Shown here piece after piece: positions 1-8,368 of a DNA stretch of 8,368 nt (position 1 is its first letter; every line of letters starts with the position of its first letter). The notes below the pieces were generated by a model that had not been told where the DNA came from, did not search any database, and saw nothing but the letters and a program-made list of their open reading frames with translations. The translations under genes and the position numbers were made by a program. This stretch comes from Chloroflexota bacterium (GTDB taxonomy: Bacteria; Chloroflexota; Anaerolineae; J102). The stretch is taken from the NCBI GenBank assembly GCA_003353825.1, contig PIVW01000252.1:1-8368 (forward strand). Direction: 5' to 3'.

Positions 1-1
1 C

Positions 2-104
2 TTCGCGTGACGATCACGAATTTCCGTTGATGATTCCCCCACACCTAGTGGCTGGTTGTGTCAAGCGCCTAGATATAGTGTGGGAAAAATCCGTATCACG
101 CGAA
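2..104. repeat. Nested palindromic element beyond the fabH 3' end
   Basis: TTCGCGTGA at 2-10 is the exact reverse complement of TCACGCGAA at 96-104. Inside it, CCCACAC at 38-44 is the exact reverse complement of GTGTGGG at 78-84. The nested arms give a roughly 103-bp cruciform or hairpin-forming stretch with no coding potential I can support. It could be a miniature inverted-repeat element or part of the fabH 3' untranslated region. The window begins one base before it, so flanking target duplications cannot be tested. The arms do not resemble those of the other elements in this window. Confidence 0.45.
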
Positions 105-134
105 ATCCCAGAGACCCTTTTTGTATTGCGCAAT

Positions 135-1337
135 CTATTGCTCATCTTCAAACTGTTGCAGACGTTTCTTGACGCCCTTCTGGAAGGTATAAAGTGGCAA
201 CATCACGGCCATGGCTGCGTCAGAGGCTTTGGTCCTTGCCTGTACTTGCATGCGCCAGGCAGTGGTTCGCATCTGCTGGGCATACTCGGTGAAGGTGTCA
301 GATACCGGCCAATCAGTTACCAGGATCGCTTCATTTTCTGTCCTGTCGCCATGCCATTCCCAAACGCAAGCGCCGAAGGTGAGCCCTGCACCGAATGCTA
401 CCAGGGTGATGTTGTCGCCGGGCCGAATACGGCCTTCATCCAGAGCCTCGCATAATGCAAGGGGCACCGACGCTGCCGAGGTATTGCCATAGCGGTCGAG
501 ATTGATCACAACTCGTTCCCGCTCAATACCCAATCGGCGAATGGCGAGGTCGACAATGCGTGCATTCGCCTGGTGGGGGATGAGCAAGTCAATATCGTTG
601 ATAGTCAGCCCTGCTTCAGTGACGGCTTTTGTGACGGCGTCGGTCATTGCCTGAGTTGCGAACTTGAACACCGCCCGTCCATCCATCCTCAGTTTGTGCT
701 CTTTTTTCGCCAGCGTCTCTTCAGTGATCTGCCGGTTACTGCCGATACCTGGCAAGATCAATGAATCCCAACCCGATCCTTCTGATCCTAACACCATGCT
801 TTGCATGCCACCCGGTTGCTGGCTACGGCTGACAATCACCGCCCCTGCGCCATCGCCGAAGAGGATGCACGTGTCACGGTCTTCCCAGTCGATGGCATAG
901 CTCAACGTCTCGGCGCCTACCACCAGCACATGTTTAAAGGCGCCGTTTTCTACGAATTGAGCGGCCGTTACCAGCCCATACATAAATCCTGTACAGCCGG
1001 CAATGATCGTCATCGCACCCGCCTTGCTTGCTCCGAGTCTATCCTGCAACAGACTGGAAGCCGGTGGGCACAGATAGTCGGGAGTGGAGCTGGCCAGGAT
1101 GATCAGGTCGAGGTCAGAGGCGCTGATGCCGGCTCGTTCCAGTGCCTGCTTTGCGGAATGGATAGACATATCGACGGTCGCTTCCCCTTCTGCTGCGATG
1201 CGACGCTCGCGAATGCCGGTACGTGAGACAATCCACTCGTCACTAGTGTCCACCATGTTGGATAGATCATCATTGGTGAGCACCCGCTCAGGCGCGTACA
1301 TTCCCCACCCCGTGATACGACTATAGTATTGAGCCAT
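135..1337 (-). CDS. fabH: 3-oxoacyl-ACP synthase III (FabH) with C-terminal extension
   Basis: This is the cytoplasmic condensing enzyme that starts type II fatty-acid synthesis by joining acetyl-CoA (or another short acyl-CoA) to malonyl-ACP. The 400-residue product shows the family pattern throughout. The N-terminal TSDEWIVSRTGIRER block is at 31-45. The nucleophile Cys115 lies in AGCTGF, His255 in LIPHQAN, and Asn285 in YGNTSAAS, completing the Cys-His-Asn triad. The thiolase fold closes at GAGLTFGACVWEW (316-328), where most FabH proteins stop. About 72 further residues follow in frame, mostly helical and charged with a hydrophobic patch (AMAVMLPLY), of unknown role. I chose the ATG at 1337 because GAGGAA (1346-1351, minus strand) sits 8 nt upstream and the protein then begins just before the conserved fold. 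An in-frame ATG at 1430 would add 31 residues unlike the family. No acp gene is adjacent. Confidence 0.93.
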   Translation of the reverse strand: MAQYYSRITGWGMYAPERVLTNDDLSNMVDTSDEWIVSRTGIRERRIAAEGEATVDMSIHSAKQALERAGISASDLDLIILASSTPDYLCPPASSLLQDRLGASKAGAMTIIAGCTGFMYGLVTAAQFVENGAFKHVLVVGAETLSYAIDWEDRDTCILFGDGAGAVIVSRSQQPGGMQSMVLGSEGSGWDSLILPGIGSNRQITEETLAKKEHKLRMDGRAVFKFATQAMTDAVTKAVTEAGLTINDIDLLIPHQANARIVDLAIRRLGIERERVVINLDRYGNTSAASVPLALCEALDEGRIRPGDNITLVAFGAGLTFGACVWEWHGDRTENEAILVTDWPVSDTFTEYAQQMRTTAWRMQVQARTKASDAAMAVMLPLYTFQKGVKKRLQQFEDEQ

Positions 1338-1345
1338 AATTGCTT

Positions 1346-1351
1346 TTCCTC
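1346..1351 (-). promoter_or_regulatory. Shine-Dalgarno deciding the fabH start
   Basis: GAGGAA on the minus strand lies 8 nt before the ATG at 1337. It supports that start over the in-frame ATG at 1430, which has no such site. Confidence 0.7.
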
Positions 1352-1406
1352 GTAATAAGAGCCAATGAATTGGAGGTAGATAAATCCTGATTAGAACGGC
1401 CAACAG

Positions 1407-1423
1407 GGTACATAAAGTGTACC
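1407..1423. promoter_or_regulatory. Operator-like palindrome upstream of fabH
   Basis: GGTACA (1407-1412) and TGTACC (1418-1423) form a perfect 6-bp inverted repeat around a 5-bp AT-rich centre, 70 bp before the fabH start. Half-sites of this geometry usually bind a dimeric repressor or activator. On the minus strand the site contains TACACT, a plausible -10 hexamer, so binding could occlude a fabH promoter, but I see no convincing -35. A smaller palindrome, GTATTGTAC, lies next to it at about 1431-1439. The cognate regulator is not identified here. Confidence 0.4.
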
Positions 1424-1455
1424 TTGCCATGTATTGTACGGACAGCGTGTTTAAG

Positions 1456-1593
1456 TAAAGGAGCTGAAAACTCTGGGATAGTCTAAAACGGCTGTTCGCA
1501 CCCTCATATACAGGGGGGTTTTGCTCGTTCGCACCTGTGTAAACAGGGCAAAAAATAGCTCAAAAAAGTCTTCCAGAGTTCTCAGTAAAGGAG
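1456..1593. mobile_element. MITE-like inverted-repeat element, copy A
   Basis: The core at 1464-1585 (122 bp) starts with CTGAAAACTCTGG and ends with CCAGAGTTCTCAG, terminal inverted repeats matching at 12 of 13 positions. It is flanked on both sides by the identical octamer TAAAGGAG (1456-1463 and 1586-1593), which looks like a target-site duplication. No transposase is encoded. The interior carries an inner hairpin (CCCT/AGGG and ACAGG/CCTGT arms) and an imperfect internal direct repeat beginning GTTCGCACC. It is about 80% identical to copy B near 3101-3223, in the same orientation. It sits between the 3' end of the anti-sigma-like gene and the upstream region of fabH. An alternative is a structured RNA or regulatory repeat rather than a transposable element. 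Confidence 0.75.
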
Positions 1594-1597
1594 ATGA

Positions 1598-1987
1598 TTA
1601 CGCAGCTAGTGCTTGTTCTTCAGGTGCAGGGGACCGTGTAAAACGCCAGAATGCGTAAACTCCCACCAGTGAAGCTGTACCCAACGCAGCCACAGGCACG
1701 ATCCAGGAAGGACGTGAGGCTTTACGTTCTAATTCTATTCCCAACGCTCGCTGCACCCGACGGCGTTCTGCCTCGGCCACCAAACCAGCTTGCAGCCCCT
1801 GCCGAAATTCTTCGGAAGGTTTGACCGGCGCCATGGTCTCCCACAAGAGGCGCGCCACGGCAAAAAGGCTGGTGGTCTCCTCTGAATGCGAGGGATCAGT
1901 TTCGATTAGTGCAGCTTTTGCTTCACCCTGACTGGCAAGCATTTCATAGTAGTTGTTCAAAGCCTCTTCGGCAGGTTGTGGTTTCAT
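1598..1987 (-). CDS. Probable membrane-anchored anti-sigma-type protein
   Basis: The 129-residue product has a soluble, helix-rich N-terminal part of about 90 residues and one clear membrane segment at about 95-116 (WIVPVAALGTASLVGVYAFW), then a short Ala/Pro-rich tail. The stretch LLWETMAPVKPSEEFRQGL (48-66), followed by an AEAERRR run, resembles the juxtamembrane region of short proteins that accompany ECF sigma factors, so an N-in membrane anti-sigma role is inferred. I do not see the HxxxCxxC zinc motif of classical ZAS anti-sigma factors; the protein has no cysteine. The ATG at 1987 is supported by AGGTGA about 6 nt upstream. It lies downstream of the sigma gene on the same strand, separated from it by the degV remnant, and was probably in the same operon. 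Function is inferred from topology and position only. Confidence 0.6.
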   Translation of the reverse strand: MKPQPAEEALNNYYEMLASQGEAKAALIETDPSHSEETTSLFAVARLLWETMAPVKPSEEFRQGLQAGLVAEAERRRVQRALGIELERKASRPSWIVPVAALGTASLVGVYAFWRFTRSPAPEEQALAA

Positions 1988-2017
1988 CTTATCACCTGAC
2001 TGGAAAATCCGGGGAAT

Positions 2018-2207
2018 CTAATAGGGGTATGCAATCAATCCGACGGTGCCCGCTCCCAGGTGGACGGTGATGGAGGTTGCCAGCAGTGTAGATCAGATTT
2101 TATCGTAATTGAATGTGCATGGGAGCCACATAGACACACTTACATCCCGAACACTGTGGCGGCATATCAAACGTAGAGTCGGTGACGATGGCGACTTTGG
2201 CGGGCAT
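2018..2207 (-). pseudogene. degV-family (fatty-acid-binding protein) remnant with internal deletion
   Basis: Two pieces of a DegV protein lie in this short gap. An ATG at 2207, 6 nt after the sigma stop, opens a 35-codon frame containing KVAIVTDSTFDMPP and VYVAPMHIQL, which is the DegV N-terminus (IVTDSTADLP followed by the VVPL-type strand), ending at TAA 2100-2102. In another frame the stretch ending at TAG 2018-2020 reads ITVHLGAGTVGLIAYP, which matches the DegV C-terminus (the HxGPGxxG-type ending). A full DegV protein has about 280 residues, so over 200 residues are missing between the two pieces, and the frames no longer agree. DegV/FakB proteins bind fatty acids for phosphorylation by FakA. 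The match is by eye from known family motifs. Confidence 0.72.
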
Positions 2208-2213
2208 AAAGGG

Positions 2214-2774
2214 CTAAGCAATGTCTCGCTCTTGTAAATCGTCGCGTAAGCTGAGCAAAGTGCGATGATATAGTGACTTAATTGAGGACTCGGTACGGCC
2301 CATCAAACGGCCAATCTCTGCATTGGGCAGGCGTTCGACATACTTGAGGATGAGCAGTTGCTGCCTATCGTCGGCCAGACGGCGGACGGCATCCAGGAGT
2401 TCTTCCTGTGTTTCACGCTCTTCTGCGGCATTTCCTGGGTTGGGTGTACGCGTGCTGACGAGCGTGAGGTCTTCTAATGGTACCGACTTGCGTCGCGATT
2501 GCTGTCGATGCCAGTTGGCTACCAAGTTATGGGCAATACGATAGAGCCAAGCTGAGAAAGGAGCGCCGCGATGCTCATAACTATCGATCTTATCCAGCGC
2601 CTGAAAAAAGGTGCGCGCCGCTAGATCTTCGGCATCATCTCGGTTGCTAACGCGGTAATAAATGTAATTGTAGATTTTATCGACATGCCGCTCATATAGC
2701 TCGCCAAATGCTTCAGGATCGGTTTTGGCATTTTCGATGAGCGTGCTTTCGCTTGCATCTTTGAATAATGACAC
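2214..2774 (-). CDS. ECF-type RNA polymerase sigma factor
   Basis: The 186-residue protein has the two-domain layout of an ECF sigma factor. Region 2 is at about 20-91, with YERHVDKIYNYIYYRV, the DAEDLAARTF core-binding segment, and the WLYRIAHNLVANWHR segment that reads the -10. Region 4 is at about 124-178, with LILKYVERLPNAEIGRLMG and a helix-turn-helix ending SSIKSLYHRTLLSLR, which reads the -35. It directs RNA polymerase to a dedicated promoter set and is normally held by an anti-sigma factor; the small membrane protein downstream (1598-1987) is the likely partner. The start is a GTG at 2774. An in-frame TAA lies 9 nt upstream, so no longer form is possible, but I see no Shine-Dalgarno, so a leaderless or shorter product cannot be excluded. 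It is transcribed divergently from fabF. Confidence 0.9.
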   Translation of the reverse strand: MSLFKDASESTLIENAKTDPEAFGELYERHVDKIYNYIYYRVSNRDDAEDLAARTFFQALDKIDSYEHRGAPFSAWLYRIAHNLVANWHRQQSRRKSVPLEDLTLVSTRTPNPGNAAEERETQEELLDAVRRLADDRQQLLILKYVERLPNAEIGRLMGRTESSIKSLYHRTLLSLRDDLQERDIA

Positions 2775-3011
2775 AGCTGTTTACACACTGCTGTCGATGC
2801 ATTTGGTAAAACACCGACAGGGCTACTTGGTTGCGGAGGGGAATGGTGGTGCTCGGGATCTGCAGTTGATCTACAGATTTTCTGGTTCGAAATTGCCGTT
2901 CGTGGTCATCGCCGAGAGCACACTGATTGGGTATCGAGTATAAACGATCATCGCTAACTCAAATGAATCAACATGTCATTGTAGCATTAGCGTCAGACAG
3001 GGGGCAAAGCG
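2775..3011. other. Divergent intergenic region, no gene seen
   Basis: This is the upstream half of the 463-bp gap between the sigma gene (minus) and fabF (plus). No frame in it shows recognisable protein similarity. On the minus strand TATACT (2937-2942, plus-strand AGTATA) is a good -10 hexamer but lacks a well-spaced -35. If used, it would give the sigma mRNA a leader of about 155 nt. A 9-bp imperfect tandem pair, GATCTGCAG and GATCTACAG (2857-2876), lies between. Nothing else stands out. Confidence 0.35.
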
Positions 3012-3040
3012 TTGTCAACATACTATCTCTGTGCTATTCT
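3012..3040 (+). promoter_or_regulatory. Sigma-70-type promoter for fabF
   Basis: TTGTCA (3012-3017) and TATTCT (3035-3040) match the -35 and -10 consensus at 5/6 and 4/6 positions with the ideal 17-bp spacer. A start near 3047 would give a leader of about 190 nt before fabF. That leader contains a terminator-like hairpin and the whole of inverted-repeat copy B. Confidence 0.65.
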
Positions 3041-3061
3041 TGTCCGACCTGACACAAATAT

Positions 3062-3091
3062 CCTCATCTTTAGGGATGAGGCTTGTTTTTT
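3062..3091 (+). terminator. Terminator-like hairpin in the fabF leader (possible attenuator)
   Basis: CCTCATC (3062-3068) pairs perfectly with GATGAGG (3075-3081) around a 6-nt loop. A T-rich run ending in six Ts (3086-3091) follows, which is the shape of an intrinsic terminator. It lies downstream of the fabF promoter and on the same strand, so it would act within the fabF leader. It might attenuate fabF or stop transcription from further upstream. No alternative anti-terminator pairing was worked out. Confidence 0.55.
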
Positions 3092-3093
3092 GA

Positions 3094-3230
3094 TAAAGGA
3101 CTGAAAACTCTGGATAAGTCTAAAACGGCTATTCAGCTCCCCCGTATACAGGGGTTTTGCTCATTCACACCTGTGTAAACGGGGGCAAAAAAATGACTCA
3201 AGAAAGTTTTTCAGAGTTTTCAGTAAAGGA
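3094..3230. mobile_element. MITE-like inverted-repeat element, copy B
   Basis: The core at 3101-3223 (123 bp) runs from CTGAAAACTCTGG to TCAGAGTTTTCAG, terminal inverted repeats matching at 12 of 13 positions. It is bracketed by TAAAGGA at 3094-3100 and 3224-3230. It shares about 80% identity with copy A (1464-1585) in the same orientation. The inner hairpin is better formed here: CCCCCGT (3139-3145) pairs with ACGGGGG (3179-3185), followed by ACAGG with CCTGT. Copy A has T-A where copy B has C-G in that stem, which hints at structural conservation. No protein is encoded. The right flank continues as AAAGGAG, the Shine-Dalgarno of fabF, so the element lies wholly within the fabF leader. Confidence 0.77.
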
Positions 3231-3231
3231 G
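3225..3231 (+). promoter_or_regulatory. fabF Shine-Dalgarno, part of the element flank
   Basis: AAAGGAG lies 6 nt before the TTG at 3238 and justifies that start. The same bases form the right-hand flanking repeat of inverted-repeat copy B, and a second copy of most of this site is at 3095-3100. Confidence 0.8.
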
Positions 3232-3237
3232 TGAAAT

Positions 3238-4494
3238 TTGACAGCTAAGAACGGACGGAAACGCGTTGTTATCACCGGCATGGGGGCTGTCAGTCCTTTG
3301 GGACTTGATGTTCAATCCACATGGGAAGCGATGCTTGCCGGGCGCTCAGGCGCGGTTCCGATTACCACTTATGAAACGAAAGACCTACCCACGAAGATGG
3401 TTGCCAAAATCGAGGGTTTCGACGTAGAGAAATACATGAAGCGCCGCGAGTCCAAGCGCTTAGGACGCGTGACACATCTGGCTGTAGCAGCTACAGAAGA
3501 AGCCCTGGCCGATTCGGGATTAGATCTCGCTGCGGAAGATCCGACTCGGGTAGGTGTCGAGATGGGCAGCGCTTTTGGCGCCTTAGATATTGTCGAATCG
3601 GAATCACATTTGGGCAAAACTCAGGGGGTGCGTAAAACCAATCCGACCATCGCTCCGGCTGTGCTTGTTTCAACCACTCCCTGCCATTTAGCAATCCGTC
3701 ATGGTATCCAGGGGCCTGTCAATTCGCCAGTTGCAGCCTGCGCCACCGGCGTATTCAGCTTGGGCGAAGCTGCACATCGTATTCAGCGCGGCGCTGCAGA
3801 TACGATCTTGGTCGGCGGTACCGATTCTTACATGACTTCTTTGTTAGTCTATGCTTTCGGCCGTTTGGGCGCCATGTCAACCCGCAACGATGATCCTCAA
3901 CACGCCTGCCGGCCCTTTGACCTTGAACGTGATGGCATGATCCTGGGTGAAGGGGCTGTTGCGATGGTGATGGAGTCGTTGGAACACGCCTTAGCGCGAG
4001 GGGCCACTATCCTTGCCGAATATGGTGGGATGGGATTTACCTGCGATGCTTATCATATCGCCGCCCCTGATCCTGAAGGATCGGGTGCAGCTCGTGCCAT
4101 GAAACAGGCGCTGATCGAAGCGGAGATGGAACCAGAAGGGATTGGTTATGTGGCTGCACACGGCACTGCCACCAAGCTGAACGATCTGTCTGAGACCAAA
4201 GCGCTCAAACACGCATTGGGTGAGCATGCCTATAACGTGCCTGTAGTTTCTATCAAGCCAATGATCGGCCATGCTATGGGCGCTGCGGGTAGTTTCGGAG
4301 CGTTTACCATCATCCAGGCCATTCGCACCGGCTGGGTACCCCCCACCATCAATTATTCTGTTCCCGATCCTGAATGTGATCTCGACTATGTACCTAACGA
4401 AGCGCGAGAAGTGCAGGTCGATGCCGGTGTCGCCAATGCCTTTGGTTTTGGCGGACAAAACGGTTCCCTGATTATCAAGCGTTTTGAAGCTTGA
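3238..4494 (+). CDS. fabF: 3-oxoacyl-ACP synthase II (FabF)
   Basis: This cytoplasmic elongating condensing enzyme joins acyl-ACP to malonyl-ACP in type II fatty-acid synthesis. The product has 418 residues, close to the usual 410-415. It opens with KRVVITGMGAVSPLG (8-22). The nucleophile Cys168 sits in VAACATG, His308 in AAHGTATKLND, Lys340 and His345 in SIKPMIGHAMGAAG, and the C-terminal GFGGQNGSL loop is at 403-411, so the Cys-His-His set plus Lys is complete. The usual TACATG and GFGGTN read AACATG and GFGGQN here, which are tolerated variants. The start is a TTG with AAAGGAG 6 nt upstream. fabF is separated from fabH by the sigma/anti-sigma block and lies on the opposite strand. It could be co-transcribed with lutA, 81 bp downstream, though a hairpin lies between them. 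Confidence 0.95.
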   Translation: MTAKNGRKRVVITGMGAVSPLGLDVQSTWEAMLAGRSGAVPITTYETKDLPTKMVAKIEGFDVEKYMKRRESKRLGRVTHLAVAATEEALADSGLDLAAEDPTRVGVEMGSAFGALDIVESESHLGKTQGVRKTNPTIAPAVLVSTTPCHLAIRHGIQGPVNSPVAACATGVFSLGEAAHRIQRGAADTILVGGTDSYMTSLLVYAFGRLGAMSTRNDDPQHACRPFDLERDGMILGEGAVAMVMESLEHALARGATILAEYGGMGFTCDAYHIAAPDPEGSGAARAMKQALIEAEMEPEGIGYVAAHGTATKLNDLSETKALKHALGEHAYNVPVVSIKPMIGHAMGAAGSFGAFTIIQAIRTGWVPPTINYSVPDPECDLDYVPNEAREVQVDAGVANAFGFGGQNGSLIIKRFEA

Positions 4495-4504
4495 CAAGCA
4501 ACAA

Positions 4505-4534
4505 GCCAACGTAACAGAGTATAGCAGCGTTGGC
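4505..4534 (+). terminator. Hairpin between fabF and lutA, weak terminator candidate
   Basis: GCCAACG (4505-4511) pairs perfectly with CGTTGGC (4528-4534) across a 16-nt loop, 10 nt after the fabF stop. There is no T-run after it, so it may be a pause, processing or factor-dependent site. I see no convincing promoter between here and lutA. Confidence 0.3.
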
Positions 4535-4575
4535 CGACCTTTCACCCTACCCTCAACCTCCCAGATCGAGCTTCA

Positions 4576-5310
4576 ATGGTGGTGATGAAGGTACAATTTT
4601 TTATTACCTGTTTGTTGGACCACCTTTATCCTGACATCGCAGAAGCCGTGGTGGCAGTTTTGCAACGCCAGGGTTTAGACGTGCAGGTGCCGCGCAATCA
4701 AACATGCTGTGGTCAGCCCGCCTTTAACGGTGGGTTTTTAGCCGATGCCCGCCGTATGGCCGAGCATTTTCTTGATGTGTTTGCAGATACAGAGGGACCC
4801 ATTGTCTGCGCCTCAGGGTCTTGCGCCGCCATGGTCATCCACCACTATCCCGAACTCTTCGCGGATGACCCCGAACAGTTGCTGCGAGCCCAAGCTATCG
4901 CCGGGCGTATGAGAGAATTTAGCCAGTTCTTGGTCGAAGATATGGGATTGAGTTACGCGGGTGGTCGGGCGGGGTGTTACACGTATCATCCATCCTGCCA
5001 TCTCACACGCGATCTAGGTGTACGGGGCTGTGCCGAAACACTGCTCGATGCCATACCGAACAGCCAGCATCGGCTGCTGCCTGAAGCTGAACAGTGCTGC
5101 GGTTTCGGCGGGTTATTTGCTATCAAAATGCCCGCCATGTCTGCGTCGATGATGCGGCGTAAACTGGACAATATCGCTGCCAGCGGAGCCGATACCTGTG
5201 TTGTCTGTGATGTCTCTTGTATGATGCACATGAATGGAGGTCTGATCCAGCAGGGGAGGGAACCTGTGGTCAGGCATATCGCCGAGGTGTTAGTGGAGGA
5301 GTTGCCTTGA
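4576..5310 (+). CDS. lutA: LutA/YkgE-family lactate-oxidation iron-sulfur protein
   Basis: This is a subunit of the LutABC system, which oxidises L-lactate to pyruvate in the cytoplasm. The 244-residue product is built of two cysteine-rich (CCG) domains, as in heterodisulfide-reductase-type subunits. The first has Cys12, Cys44-Cys45-Gly and CASGSC (78-83). The second has Cys141 in HPSCHLTRDLG, Cys174-Cys175-Gly in EQCCGFGG, and CVVCDVSC (208-215). Length and cysteine spacing are normal for the family. The ATG at 4576 gives MVVMKVQFF; family members usually begin near MKV, so the ATG at 4585 is equally possible, and neither has a good Shine-Dalgarno. Its stop overlaps the lutB start (TTGA), a sign of translational coupling. 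Confidence 0.9.
   Translation: MVVMKVQFFITCLLDHLYPDIAEAVVAVLQRQGLDVQVPRNQTCCGQPAFNGGFLADARRMAEHFLDVFADTEGPIVCASGSCAAMVIHHYPELFADDPEQLLRAQAIAGRMREFSQFLVEDMGLSYAGGRAGCYTYHPSCHLTRDLGVRGCAETLLDAIPNSQHRLLPEAEQCCGFGGLFAIKMPAMSASMMRRKLDNIAASGADTCVVCDVSCMMHMNGGLIQQGREPVVRHIAEVLVEELP
5295..5309 (+). promoter_or_regulatory. Strong Shine-Dalgarno and TTG start of lutB inside lutA
   Basis: GGAGGAG (5295-5301) lies 5 nt before the TTG at 5307-5309, whose last two bases begin the lutA stop TGA (5308-5310). This fixes the lutB start and rejects the in-frame ATG at 5217, deep inside lutA. Confidence 0.8.
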
Positions 5311-6719
5311 CCTCCCTCGACCAACGTTGTGAGATCGCTCTGCAGGATATCCCCCTGCAACAGGCTCTTGGCAGCGCCATGGATCATTTTGTCTTTGGCC
5401 GGTTAGGGGCGTTCTCGGCGTTGCCGCATGGTGAAGCACTGCGGGATCACGCTCGCACCATTCGTGCAAACACCTTAGCGCGGTTAGATGAGCACCTGCT
5501 GGCATTTGAAGCAAGTGCGCTCGCCAATGGCAGCCAGGTGTACTGGGCAAGTGATGCGGCAGAGGCGTGTGATCTGGTCGTGCGCATAGCCAAAGCGGAG
5601 ACAGTACGCAAGGTCGTTAAAAGCAAGTCGATGTTGACAGAAGAAGTGCAGCTCAATAGCGCTCTTGAAACGGCCGGCATCCATGTCATAGAAACAGATT
5701 TGGGCGAATATGTTGTCCAGCTCAGTGGCGACCACCCCAGCCACATCATTGCACCTATCGTTCATAAAAGGCTCGAAGATGTGGCAGAGTTATTTCACGA
5801 CGAACTGGGCACGCCACTAGATGCTACCATTCCGGTCTTGACTACCGCTGCCCGCCAAGCGTTGCGCGATGCATTTATCGACGCCGATATGGGTATCACA
5901 GGCGCTAATTTTGCTGTGTCCGAAACTGGCTCGATAGTGTTGGTAACCAATGAGGGTAACGGTCGTTTTGTGACTACCACGCCCCGTATTCATGTCGCCC
6001 TGGTCGGTATCGAACGCCTTGTCCCCACATTGCCAGAATTGGGGACGCTCTTGCAGGTGCTGGCCCGCAGTGCCACCGGCCAACCTTTGAGCAGTTACAC
6101 CTCCATCGTCACCGGTCCTCGCCACAGTGTCGAGGAAGATGGGCCCGAGCAGGTACACATCATTCTGGTGGATAACGGCCGAACCGACGCCTTGAAAGGG
6201 GAGTTGGCGGAAATGCTCTATTGCATTCGCTGCGGCGCTTGTCTCAATGTCTGCCCGGTGTACCGAAATGTGGGAGGGCACGCTTACGGGTCGGTCTATC
6301 CTGGCCCGATGGGGATTGTCGTCACTCCGGCCATCGATGGGCTTGATCCCTGGTATGAACTTCCTCAGGCTTCCAGCCTTTGCGGCGCCTGCACCGAAGC
6401 TTGCCCCGTACGCATCGATATCCCACGCATGTTACTCAACCTACGCGCCGAAAGCGTGGATCGGGGCCACACCCCCCGCTGGTTGCGGCTGGGGTTACGG
6501 GCTTATGGCTGGGCGGCGGTTCATCCCCGACTGTATCGTTTGGGTGCAAAAATCGCCAGTCTCGGCCAGCACCTGATGCCACGGACCAAACAAGGATGGA
6601 CCAGACACGTACCTGGCCCTCTGGCCGGATGGACTGATTCTCGCGCTTTTCCACCCCTGGCCGGCCGCAGTTTCAGCGAACGCTGGGAAAAGAAAACGGC
6701 GAGATCGAAAGACCCCTGA
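5307..6719 (+). CDS. lutB: LutB/YkgF-family lactate-oxidation iron-sulfur protein
   Basis: This is the large iron-sulfur subunit of the LutABC lactate oxidation system, 470 residues, a normal length. The N-terminal two thirds is the LUD (DUF162-type) domain shared with LutC, with SKSMLTEE at 106-113, DMGITGANFAVSETGSIVL at 194-212 and a TGP motif at 269-271. The C-terminal third carries ferredoxin-type cluster ligands: CIRCGACLNVCP (Cys306, 309, 312, 316) and SLCGACTEACPVRIDIP (Cys359, 362, 366). The second motif has three cysteines, as is usual for LutB. A basic and aromatic tail follows (391-470). The start is a TTG overlapping the lutA stop with GGAGGAG upstream. The stop codon lies inside the left flanking repeat of the 126-bp element at 6723-6848. 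Confidence 0.93.
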   Translation: MTSLDQRCEIALQDIPLQQALGSAMDHFVFGRLGAFSALPHGEALRDHARTIRANTLARLDEHLLAFEASALANGSQVYWASDAAEACDLVVRIAKAETVRKVVKSKSMLTEEVQLNSALETAGIHVIETDLGEYVVQLSGDHPSHIIAPIVHKRLEDVAELFHDELGTPLDATIPVLTTAARQALRDAFIDADMGITGANFAVSETGSIVLVTNEGNGRFVTTTPRIHVALVGIERLVPTLPELGTLLQVLARSATGQPLSSYTSIVTGPRHSVEEDGPEQVHIILVDNGRTDALKGELAEMLYCIRCGACLNVCPVYRNVGGHAYGSVYPGPMGIVVTPAIDGLDPWYELPQASSLCGACTEACPVRIDIPRMLLNLRAESVDRGHTPRWLRLGLRAYGWAAVHPRLYRLGAKIASLGQHLMPRTKQGWTRHVPGPLAGWTDSRAFPPLAGRSFSERWEKKTARSKDP

Positions 6720-6856
6720 ACCGTATCTTCTCAATAACTTGGGGGAACCAACCCGCCCACGAAGGTGGACGTTCGGCGTAGGTTCGTAGAACCCCGCCCC
6801 CAGAGCCCGAATTGATTAGGCGAGTGCCCCGGAATATTGAGAAGATACCCTAAACC
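6715..6856. mobile_element. 126-bp inverted-repeat element at the lutB stop codon
   Basis: GTATCTTCTCAATA (6723-6736) and TATTGAGAAGATAC (6835-6848) are perfect 14-bp terminal inverted repeats. The immediate flanks, CCTGAACC (6715-6722) and CCTAAACC (6849-6856), match at 7 of 8 positions, as expected for an aged target duplication. The left flank contains the lutB TGA. The GC-rich interior has no gene but can fold into nested stems: CCAC/GTGG around 6757-6769, GGTTC/GAACC around 6780-6793, and an outer GGGGG/CCCCC pair. The termini are unrelated to copies A and B, though the size and 8-bp flanks are similar. It pushes lutC away from lutB; without it and one flank the gap would be about 59 bp. 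Confidence 0.75.
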
Positions 6857-6912
6857 GGCCATCCAGTCCGACCATAACCCGCAGCACCCTGCCACCTTGT
6901 CACTCCATCACT

Positions 6913-7602
6913 ATGTCCTCCCGCACCGACATCCTCACTCGTATCCGTAGCTCGCTGAATACAGCCTATCTGCCCGCAGCATCAGGCGCCACGTCACCGG
7001 CGCCGGTTCCGCCGACCTTCGAGGAACCATTGCTCGATGTATTTATCGAAGCCCTGCTGGCTGTGCAAGGCGTGATTCATGTCGTCGCAGATGTAGATGC
7101 TGCCCGAGATCTGTTGCTGTCTGAGTTCAGGACGAGAGGCGTTGTTCAGGTGCTCTGTTGGGATCCGGGGCGTTTGTCTGTGCCCGACCTTGAGGGCACG
7201 CTAGCCCATCATGGCATTGAGTTGGTCAAGAGTGGTCTGTCTGGGGCGGATCGCCAGCAAGAGATCCAACGATTGTCCGCGATTGAGATCGGACTCACTG
7301 GAGCGGATGTCGGGCTCGCTCGCACCGGCAGTGTTGTGCTACATGCCGATTCAGCACAAGGACGGCTGGCTTCCTTGATGCCGCCAGTTCATTATGTTTT
7401 GCTACGAAGCGATCAAATCTATCCCGACCTGGCTGCCTGGATTACAAGCGATGGTGCGGACGAGGCCATTGCCGGCAGCAGCAATACCGTGATCATCACC
7501 GGACCCAGCCGCACTGGTGATATCGCCCAGACGCTGACACTTGGTGCTCATGGGCCAAAGGAGCTACATGTGATCTTGCAACTGGGGCCGGCCTCAGCTT
7601 GA
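6913..7602 (+). CDS. lutC: LutC/YkgG-family lactate utilization protein
   Basis: This is the third LutABC component, a 229-residue LUD-domain protein without iron-sulfur motifs; its only cysteine, Cys82, is isolated. The conserved blocks are GLTGADVGLARTGSVVL (127-143), LMPPVHYVLL (155-164), TGPSRTGDIAQTLTLG (196-211) and HGPKELHVIL (213-222), all typical of the family. The region before about residue 40 is variable and Pro/Ala-rich. The ATG at 6913 has no clear Shine-Dalgarno. It is the third gene of the operon, 193 bp after lutB because of the intervening inverted-repeat element, so its translation and perhaps its transcription may be uncoupled from lutAB. Confidence 0.9.
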   Translation: MSSRTDILTRIRSSLNTAYLPAASGATSPAPVPPTFEEPLLDVFIEALLAVQGVIHVVADVDAARDLLLSEFRTRGVVQVLCWDPGRLSVPDLEGTLAHHGIELVKSGLSGADRQQEIQRLSAIEIGLTGADVGLARTGSVVLHADSAQGRLASLMPPVHYVLLRSDQIYPDLAAWITSDGADEAIAGSSNTVIITGPSRTGDIAQTLTLGAHGPKELHVILQLGPASA

Positions 7603-7606
7603 GGCC
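7590..7606 (+). terminator. Hairpin overlapping the lutC stop codon
   Basis: GGCCTCA (7590-7596) and TGAGGCC (7600-7606) form a perfect 7-bp GC-rich stem with a 3-nt loop, the right arm containing the lutC TGA. The following bases are not a clean T-run, so intrinsic termination is uncertain, but it is a natural end for the lut transcript. Confidence 0.4.
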
Positions 7607-7648
7607 TTGCAATGTGGGGATATTGCCGCACTCTATTTTCACAGTGCC

Positions 7649-8344
7649 ATGGCTTAACGCATTTTAGTTGTAGAAGATGACAGACAGATCGTGCGGTTGC
7701 TGCGCGCCTACCTGGAACAGGCGGGCTACCATGTCGTTGTGGCGTACGATGGCGAAACCGTCTTGCACGCCATCCGTAGCGAGAAGCCGGACCTGGTTGT
7801 CTTGGACTTGATGTTGCCGGAGAGAGATGGTTGGGAAATCACGCACATTATGCGAAATGATGAACTCCTGGCCGGAACACCGATCATCATGCTCACTGCC
7901 CGCATCGAAGACACCGACAAGATCACCGGGTTGGAACTGGAGGCCGATGATTATGTACCCAAGCCCTTCAATCCTCGCGAAGTGGTGGCGGACATCGCCC
8001 ATGAGTTGCGCACTCCTCTCACCGTCATCCAGGGTAATCTCCAGGCTATCTTGGATGATGTTTACCCACTTGAAAAGCGCGAGATCGTCACCGTTTATGA
8101 TGAGACCATCGTCCTTGGCCGCTTGGTTAGCGATCTGCGCGACTTATCCCAGGCAGAGGCGAGGCAACTGAACTTGAATATACAGCCGACTGCGGTGCAT
8201 CCGACAGTGGATGGCGTGCGCAATGCCACCAGTTGTGCTTTGTTGCACTCAAATCTGGCGGCTAGGCAGCAATCGCCACCTGTTGTTGCCGGGGCGGGGG
8301 GCGAAATAAGAGCAATTCCTGCAATGGACAAATATGACTGGTGA
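7649..8344 (+). pseudogene. Broken response regulator fused to histidine-kinase dimerisation domain
   Basis: Reading from the ATG at 7649, codon 3 is TAA (7655-7657) and the same frame then continues as a canonical receiver. It has RILVVEDD with acidic residues 9-11, phospho-acceptor Asp53 in VVLDLMLP, Thr83 and Lys105 in VPKPF. The first usable start after the stop is GTG 7691, which would lose the first strand and the acidic pocket. At about codon 114 (near 7988), where an output DNA-binding domain should begin, the frame passes directly into DIAHELRTPLTVIQGNL, the H-box of a histidine kinase (His118), and a dimerisation helix pair to about codon 180. Similarity fades after about 8215. No winged-helix or HATPase domain remains. 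This is best explained by deletion between adjacent regulator and kinase genes plus a nonsense mutation. Confidence 0.8.
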
Positions 8345-8368
8345 TGCCTGCAGCCATAGCAGGAGTGC
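8215..8368. other. Unassigned tail of the window
   Basis: After the kinase-like similarity ends, the sequence to the window edge shows no family I recognise in any frame. CCTGC (8347-8351) and GCAGG (8359-8363) form a short hairpin with a 7-nt loop. It may be the far side of a second deletion junction or the start of an unrelated region. Confidence 0.3.

Follow-up and report, generated by a model that had tools for sequence, protein, structure and literature searches.

The described systems closest to the short repeat reported here, which is present in two copies (A and B) in an 8,368-nucleotide stretch of DNA from a Chloroflexota bacterium (contig PIVW01000252.1, positions 1 to 8,368; hereafter the window), are MITEAba12 of Acinetobacter and the ISPepr1 subgroup of the IS4 family of insertion sequences. 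With a probability of about 93%, the repeat is a miniature inverted-repeat transposable element (MITE), a short passenger without coding capacity that an IS4-like transposase, by recognizing its ends, moves in trans. As described (PMC6382973), MITEAba12 is a non-coding element of 111-114 bp found in 90 copies across many genomes, has inverted ends in common with the resident insertion sequence ISAba12, prefers AT-rich targets and is accompanied by 9-bp target duplications in 40% of its copies; the insertion sequences listed there with ends similar or identical to its own begin GGCTTTGTTGCA. The window element resembles it in being short and non-coding, in having ends common to a larger element, and in its target duplications and AT-rich targets, but differs from it (9 bp, GGCTTTGTTGCA) in having the ends CTGAAAACTCTGGAAAA, duplications of 6-8 bp and an IS4-like mover, and no sequence relation between the two is claimed.

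In PMC2266710, the ISPepr1 subgroup is characterized by 5'-CT ends with the consensus YT-AA-YTT---A, a length of 1500-1600 bp, duplications of 7-8 bp, AT-rich targets and a complete YREK motif, and duplications of 8-9 bp are given there for IS50 elements. The system in question agrees with the subgroup, as so described, in its 5'-CT ends, AT-rich targets, YREK motif and duplications of mainly 7-8 bp (18 of 21); by eye its ends match the consensus at five of the eight fixed positions, the full length of the larger element being unseen. The IS50/Tn5 transposase and the IS4-like mover share only 14-16% identity. MITEs of the IS4 family were searched for in the literature and none was found.

Two copies of the element in the window

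The copies and the direct repeats flanking them are located as follows.

1464 to 1585, no strand assigned: MITE copy A (122 bp), with inverted ends
3101 to 3223, no strand assigned: MITE copy B (123 bp), with inverted ends, inside the presumed fabF leader
1456 to 1463, no strand assigned: TAAAGGAG, 8-bp direct repeat to the left of copy A (target-site duplication)
1586 to 1593, no strand assigned: right target-site duplication of copy A, TAAAGGAG, ribosome-binding site of no called gene
3094 to 3100, no strand assigned: left target-site duplication of copy B, TAAAGGA
3224 to 3230, plus strand: TAAAGGA to the right of copy B (target-site duplication), overlapping and forming part of AAAGGAG, the ribosome-binding site of fabF

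A preliminary description of this DNA had noted two about 80% identical elements with matching inverted ends and no coding capacity, and all three points were borne out: 103 of the 125 aligned columns are identical (82%), the inverted ends (left CTGAAAACTCTGG; right CCAGAGTTCTCAG in A and TCAGAGTTTTCAG in B) were confirmed from the sequence and the repeat scan, and the longest stop-free run is 40 amino acids in copy A and 39 in copy B. In the repeat scan of the window the two copies make up families D1, D3 and D6, and the inverted repeat of copy B (I4) is 18 nt at 89%, counting one flanking base. The TAAAGGA(G) reported on both sides is also present, as TAAAGGAG twice at A and as TAAAGGA twice at B. 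The placement of the copies at Shine-Dalgarno sequences is correct for B, in front of fabF, and incorrect for A; only one of the two copies is located at a ribosome-binding site, because no called gene makes use of the plus-strand TAAAGGAG at A.

Empty orthologous sites

The window locus is present in pieces on contig C60 of Chloroflexi MAG Bse_26 (G001): four are long and 91-96% identical, and a fifth has 43 bases at 88%. This contig aligns on either side of A and of B, yet contains neither copy. The empty site for B is GATAAAGGAGTGAGATTTG: in G001:C60, which reads TTTTTTGATAAAGGAGTGAGATTTG, TAAAGGA occurs once, whereas in the window it stands on both sides of the element, and therefore TAAAGGA is duplicated target DNA. 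At A, the matching stretch AATTAAGGAAATAATTATG has diverged and shows the absence of the element only. The empty-site comparison recommended at the outset was clean for B, and it agrees with the proposal that insertion at this point duplicated the ribosome-binding site and left fabF with one.

The heptamer is identical at both window copies, as would be expected if it belonged to the element and the mobile unit were the whole 138-bp block, but the empty site for B already has one TAAAGGAG and the flanks vary at other copies, so that this alternative, also raised in the preliminary description, is scarcely credible. A second alternative, in which the block is not mobile and instead serves fabF as a conserved regulatory leader (an RNA element), draws on the folding of the plus strand, which is better than that of shuffled sequences (z of -5.3 for copy B and -3.5 for copy A). 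However, the 138-bp block is absent from the orthologous fabF leader of G001:C60, against the conserved leader that had been named as contrary to mobility; Rfam gave no match up to E 1; covariation is nearly absent, changes on both sides being found in two of 36 predicted pairs, one of them within the inverted ends; and the other copies lie at unrelated loci. On the G001 leader lacking the block, the Rfam result and the near absence of covariation, this very improbable reading was rejected.

Copies outside the window

A left-end pattern of 28 positions, 25 of them specified, matched 16 stretches in the genome_contigs collection, every one in G001; one pattern run on viral_contigs matched no stretch. 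When one copy was used as the query against 61 genomes (G001 and 60 relatives) at E 0.001, matches were found in G001 alone. Searches of G001 with each copy gave at least 41 matches to copy B and at least 40 to copy A; these copy numbers may be low, the scored first-look candidates being 40 of 61 for the B query and 40 of 55 for the A query. The element recurs in G001 about 40 times, far above chance.

A total of 43 records were gathered (41 from G001 and two from the window), with L057 and L058 left out as duplicate records of L046 and L031, respectively. Full length, 121-124 bp, was seen in 31, of which 28 are followed at each end by 8 bp or more of flanking sequence and form the base for flank counts; alignment A1 comprises 30 of the 31, without L040, whose right flank is the same as that of L038. 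In each of the contig-end pairs L032/L044, L038/L040 and L041/L055, a single copy is probably present in two versions or split into halves. By a crude measure, applied to the 18 copies with 600 bp on each side among 29 full G001 copies, open frames of at least 300 nt are present on both sides of one copy in 18, whereas the share is 63% for 360 control points taken from these loci. Most copies lie between genes, whether through target choice or selection.

Some copies contain, or seem to contain, other repeats. In L084 (G001:C573, 3089-3360) the element copy is itself split by another small repeat with the start CAGCAATTCCCGG and the end CCGGGAATTGCTG, for which AACTCTGGA seems duplicated, and in L048 and L070 (G001:C209 and C30) a longer repeat, whose ends resemble GGCAATACCGCAAAAGTCGGCAGG, seems to interrupt it.

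Target-site duplications and ribosome-binding sites

Exact direct repeats flank 21 of the 28 full copies, 12 of them of 7 bp, six of 8 bp and three of 6 bp; for G001 alone, 19 of 26 copies are duplicated, with targets such as AAATAGAC, CATCTACA, CACAAAT, CAAGGCG and TATTTGAT. The A+T content of these 19 duplications is 73%, versus 57% outside.

The two window copies, each with TAAAGGA(G) on both sides and with the right repeat at B serving as the fabF ribosome-binding site, led to the proposal that the element favours purine-rich ribosome-binding sites such as TAAAGGAG and that the duplication rescues the downstream gene. None of the 19 G001 duplications, however, contains AGGA or GGAG on either strand, and their mean likeness to TAAAGGAG (3.84, versus 3.63 for shuffles with a standard deviation of 0.16) is not clearly above chance, 12% of shuffles reaching this value. 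One near-match is found outside the 19, in the split contig pair L055 and L041, where TCCTTTG on each side reads CAAAGGA on the other strand and is followed after 15 nt by an ATG opening fewer than 100 codons. When the 64 flanks, window included, were read outward, accepting ATG, GTG or TTG as start codons, 10 were found to have a start codon within 25 nt opening at least 100 codons, a raw count without control, and a purine-rich motif is correctly placed in two of these 10, window copy B and L023. In L042 the duplication TGTCATG covers the likely start codon, and the ribosome-binding site is cut off, not saved, because the purine-rich motif sits across the element on its far side. Leaders are struck now and then; a preference for ribosome-binding sites does not follow. 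With no called gene behind TAAAGGAG at copy A in addition, such targeting appears very unlikely, and for G001 it was rejected on the 19 duplications. Flanks unlike TAAAGGA and not duplicated had been named in advance as the contrary outcome: the flanks proved unrelated, but duplication is the rule (19 of 26).

Larger element and candidate transposase

A larger element with the same ends is present in G001, represented by six left and eight right ends, with 20 bp in common on the left and up to 19 bp on the right. The preliminary description had suggested looking for a full-length element with a transposase gene between these ends; the ends are there, and the interior is unassembled in G001. 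As a proxy for this interior, 24 relatives were picked from the best 120 of 940 found. Y324, R327, E331 and K338 fit the spacing Y-(2)-R-(3)-E-(6)-K and, together with D62 and D195, are invariant in all 24 aligned relatives; in our reading, D62 and D195 would be the catalytic D residues of the DDE triad. Structure prediction from the alignment of 24, used in place of the single-sequence prediction (pLDDT 36), gave a model with a Tn5-like transposase fold. A PDB sequence search with P0001 returned two insignificant matches only (E 0.46 and 0.94).

In the six left ends (L073, L076, L077, L078, L079 and L083) a run of A precedes the transposase-like frame, seven in one and eight in five. The nearest ATG is out of frame with it in all six, and in most of the 24 relatives the start lies further downstream; slippage is possible, as is a later start. 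PF01609 is found at eight places in G001, of which that at C494, lying outside the nearby element end, was rejected as the mover, and the piece at C456 belongs to a relative of the mover. The MITE copies L031 and L033 (G001:C456 and C327) adjoin pieces of an IS4-like transposase gene, their right flank being common and their left flank different.

Gene context and other features of the window

Two further features concern the presumed fabF leader.

3238 to 4494, plus strand: fabF (beta-ketoacyl-ACP synthase), TTG start, Pfam PF00109 and PF02801
3012 to 3040, plus strand: promoter-like site of fabF upstream of copy B, TTGTCA-17-TATTCT, consensus match only

Copy B is located between the promoter-like site, both hexamers of which are identical in G001:C60, and fabF, and its insertion adds a predicted foldable stretch to the presumed leader. 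Between the promoter-like site and copy B there is a terminator-like hairpin (3062-3081) with a T-rich tail behind it, mostly conserved in G001:C60. Copy A is located between two minus-strand genes, one without Pfam match (1598-1987) that ends at 1598, with TAAAGGAG directly beyond its stop codon, and a KAS III gene with a likely start near 1337; on the TAAAGGAG side, a start codon opening 100 codons was not found within 200 nt.

A second, unrelated MITE-like repeat at 6723-6848 has 14-bp perfect inverted ends GTATCTTCTCAATA and is flanked by CCTGAACC and CCTAAACC; it has 17 matches elsewhere in G001 and is absent from G001:C60, where CCTAAACC occurs once. At 7691-8344 a single short frame has a response-regulator domain joined directly to a HisKA domain; this gene at the end of the window may be truncated or a fusion.

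Discussion

The repeat is short and non-coding, has terminal inverted repeats, occurs in dispersed copies with duplications and shares its ends with a coding element, as bacterial MITEs do. From these sequence features we infer that it moves and which protein moves it. The IS4-like transposase would bind the ends common to the MITE and the larger element, excise the MITE and paste it into AT-rich, mostly intergenic DNA with a stagger of 6-8 bp, the target being copied on repair. At copy B the stagger would have fallen by chance on TAAAGGA beside the fabF start, repair duplicating it so that the right-hand copy preserves the ribosome-binding site in front of the gene; a similar string would have been the chance target at copy A.

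Several points weigh against this interpretation. Seven of the 28 full copies (L021, L025, L026, L031, L033, L036 and L051) lack a direct repeat. The link to the transposase is made through the first and last stretches of the larger element, and the interior pieces tied to the transposase are only 63-82% identical, one of them with two stop codons. The label "IS4-like" is used because the NCBIfam IS4 models stay below the curated cut-off: IS4_1 and IS4_3 gave 27-36 bits under cut-offs of 115 and 160, the NF041680, IS1380 and IS701 models likewise match below cut-off, and a model of unnamed transposases outscores the IS4 models in two of three cases. Finally, base composition alone gives a chance of about 2e-4 that one given pair of duplications shares a 7-mer, a figure that is no test of coincidence, the finding having been chosen for that very match.

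The match to ribosome-binding sites in the window most likely arose by chance from two insertions, because the element is located elsewhere at many different AT-rich sites. It is very improbable that, in the lineage of the window, the element or a variant of its transposase has a preference for AAAGGAG-like strings close to the starts of genes, with insertion into a ribosome-binding site repairing itself through the 7-8 bp duplication and lengthening the fabF leader by a structured 123 nt.

The element is of a known class and opens no new mechanism. What is described is a MITE from an uncultured lineage of Chloroflexi, with an IS4-like transposase as its likely mover, together with a clean empty site. 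A target duplication of 7-8 bp can span an entire ribosome-binding site, and thus an insertion need not silence the gene.
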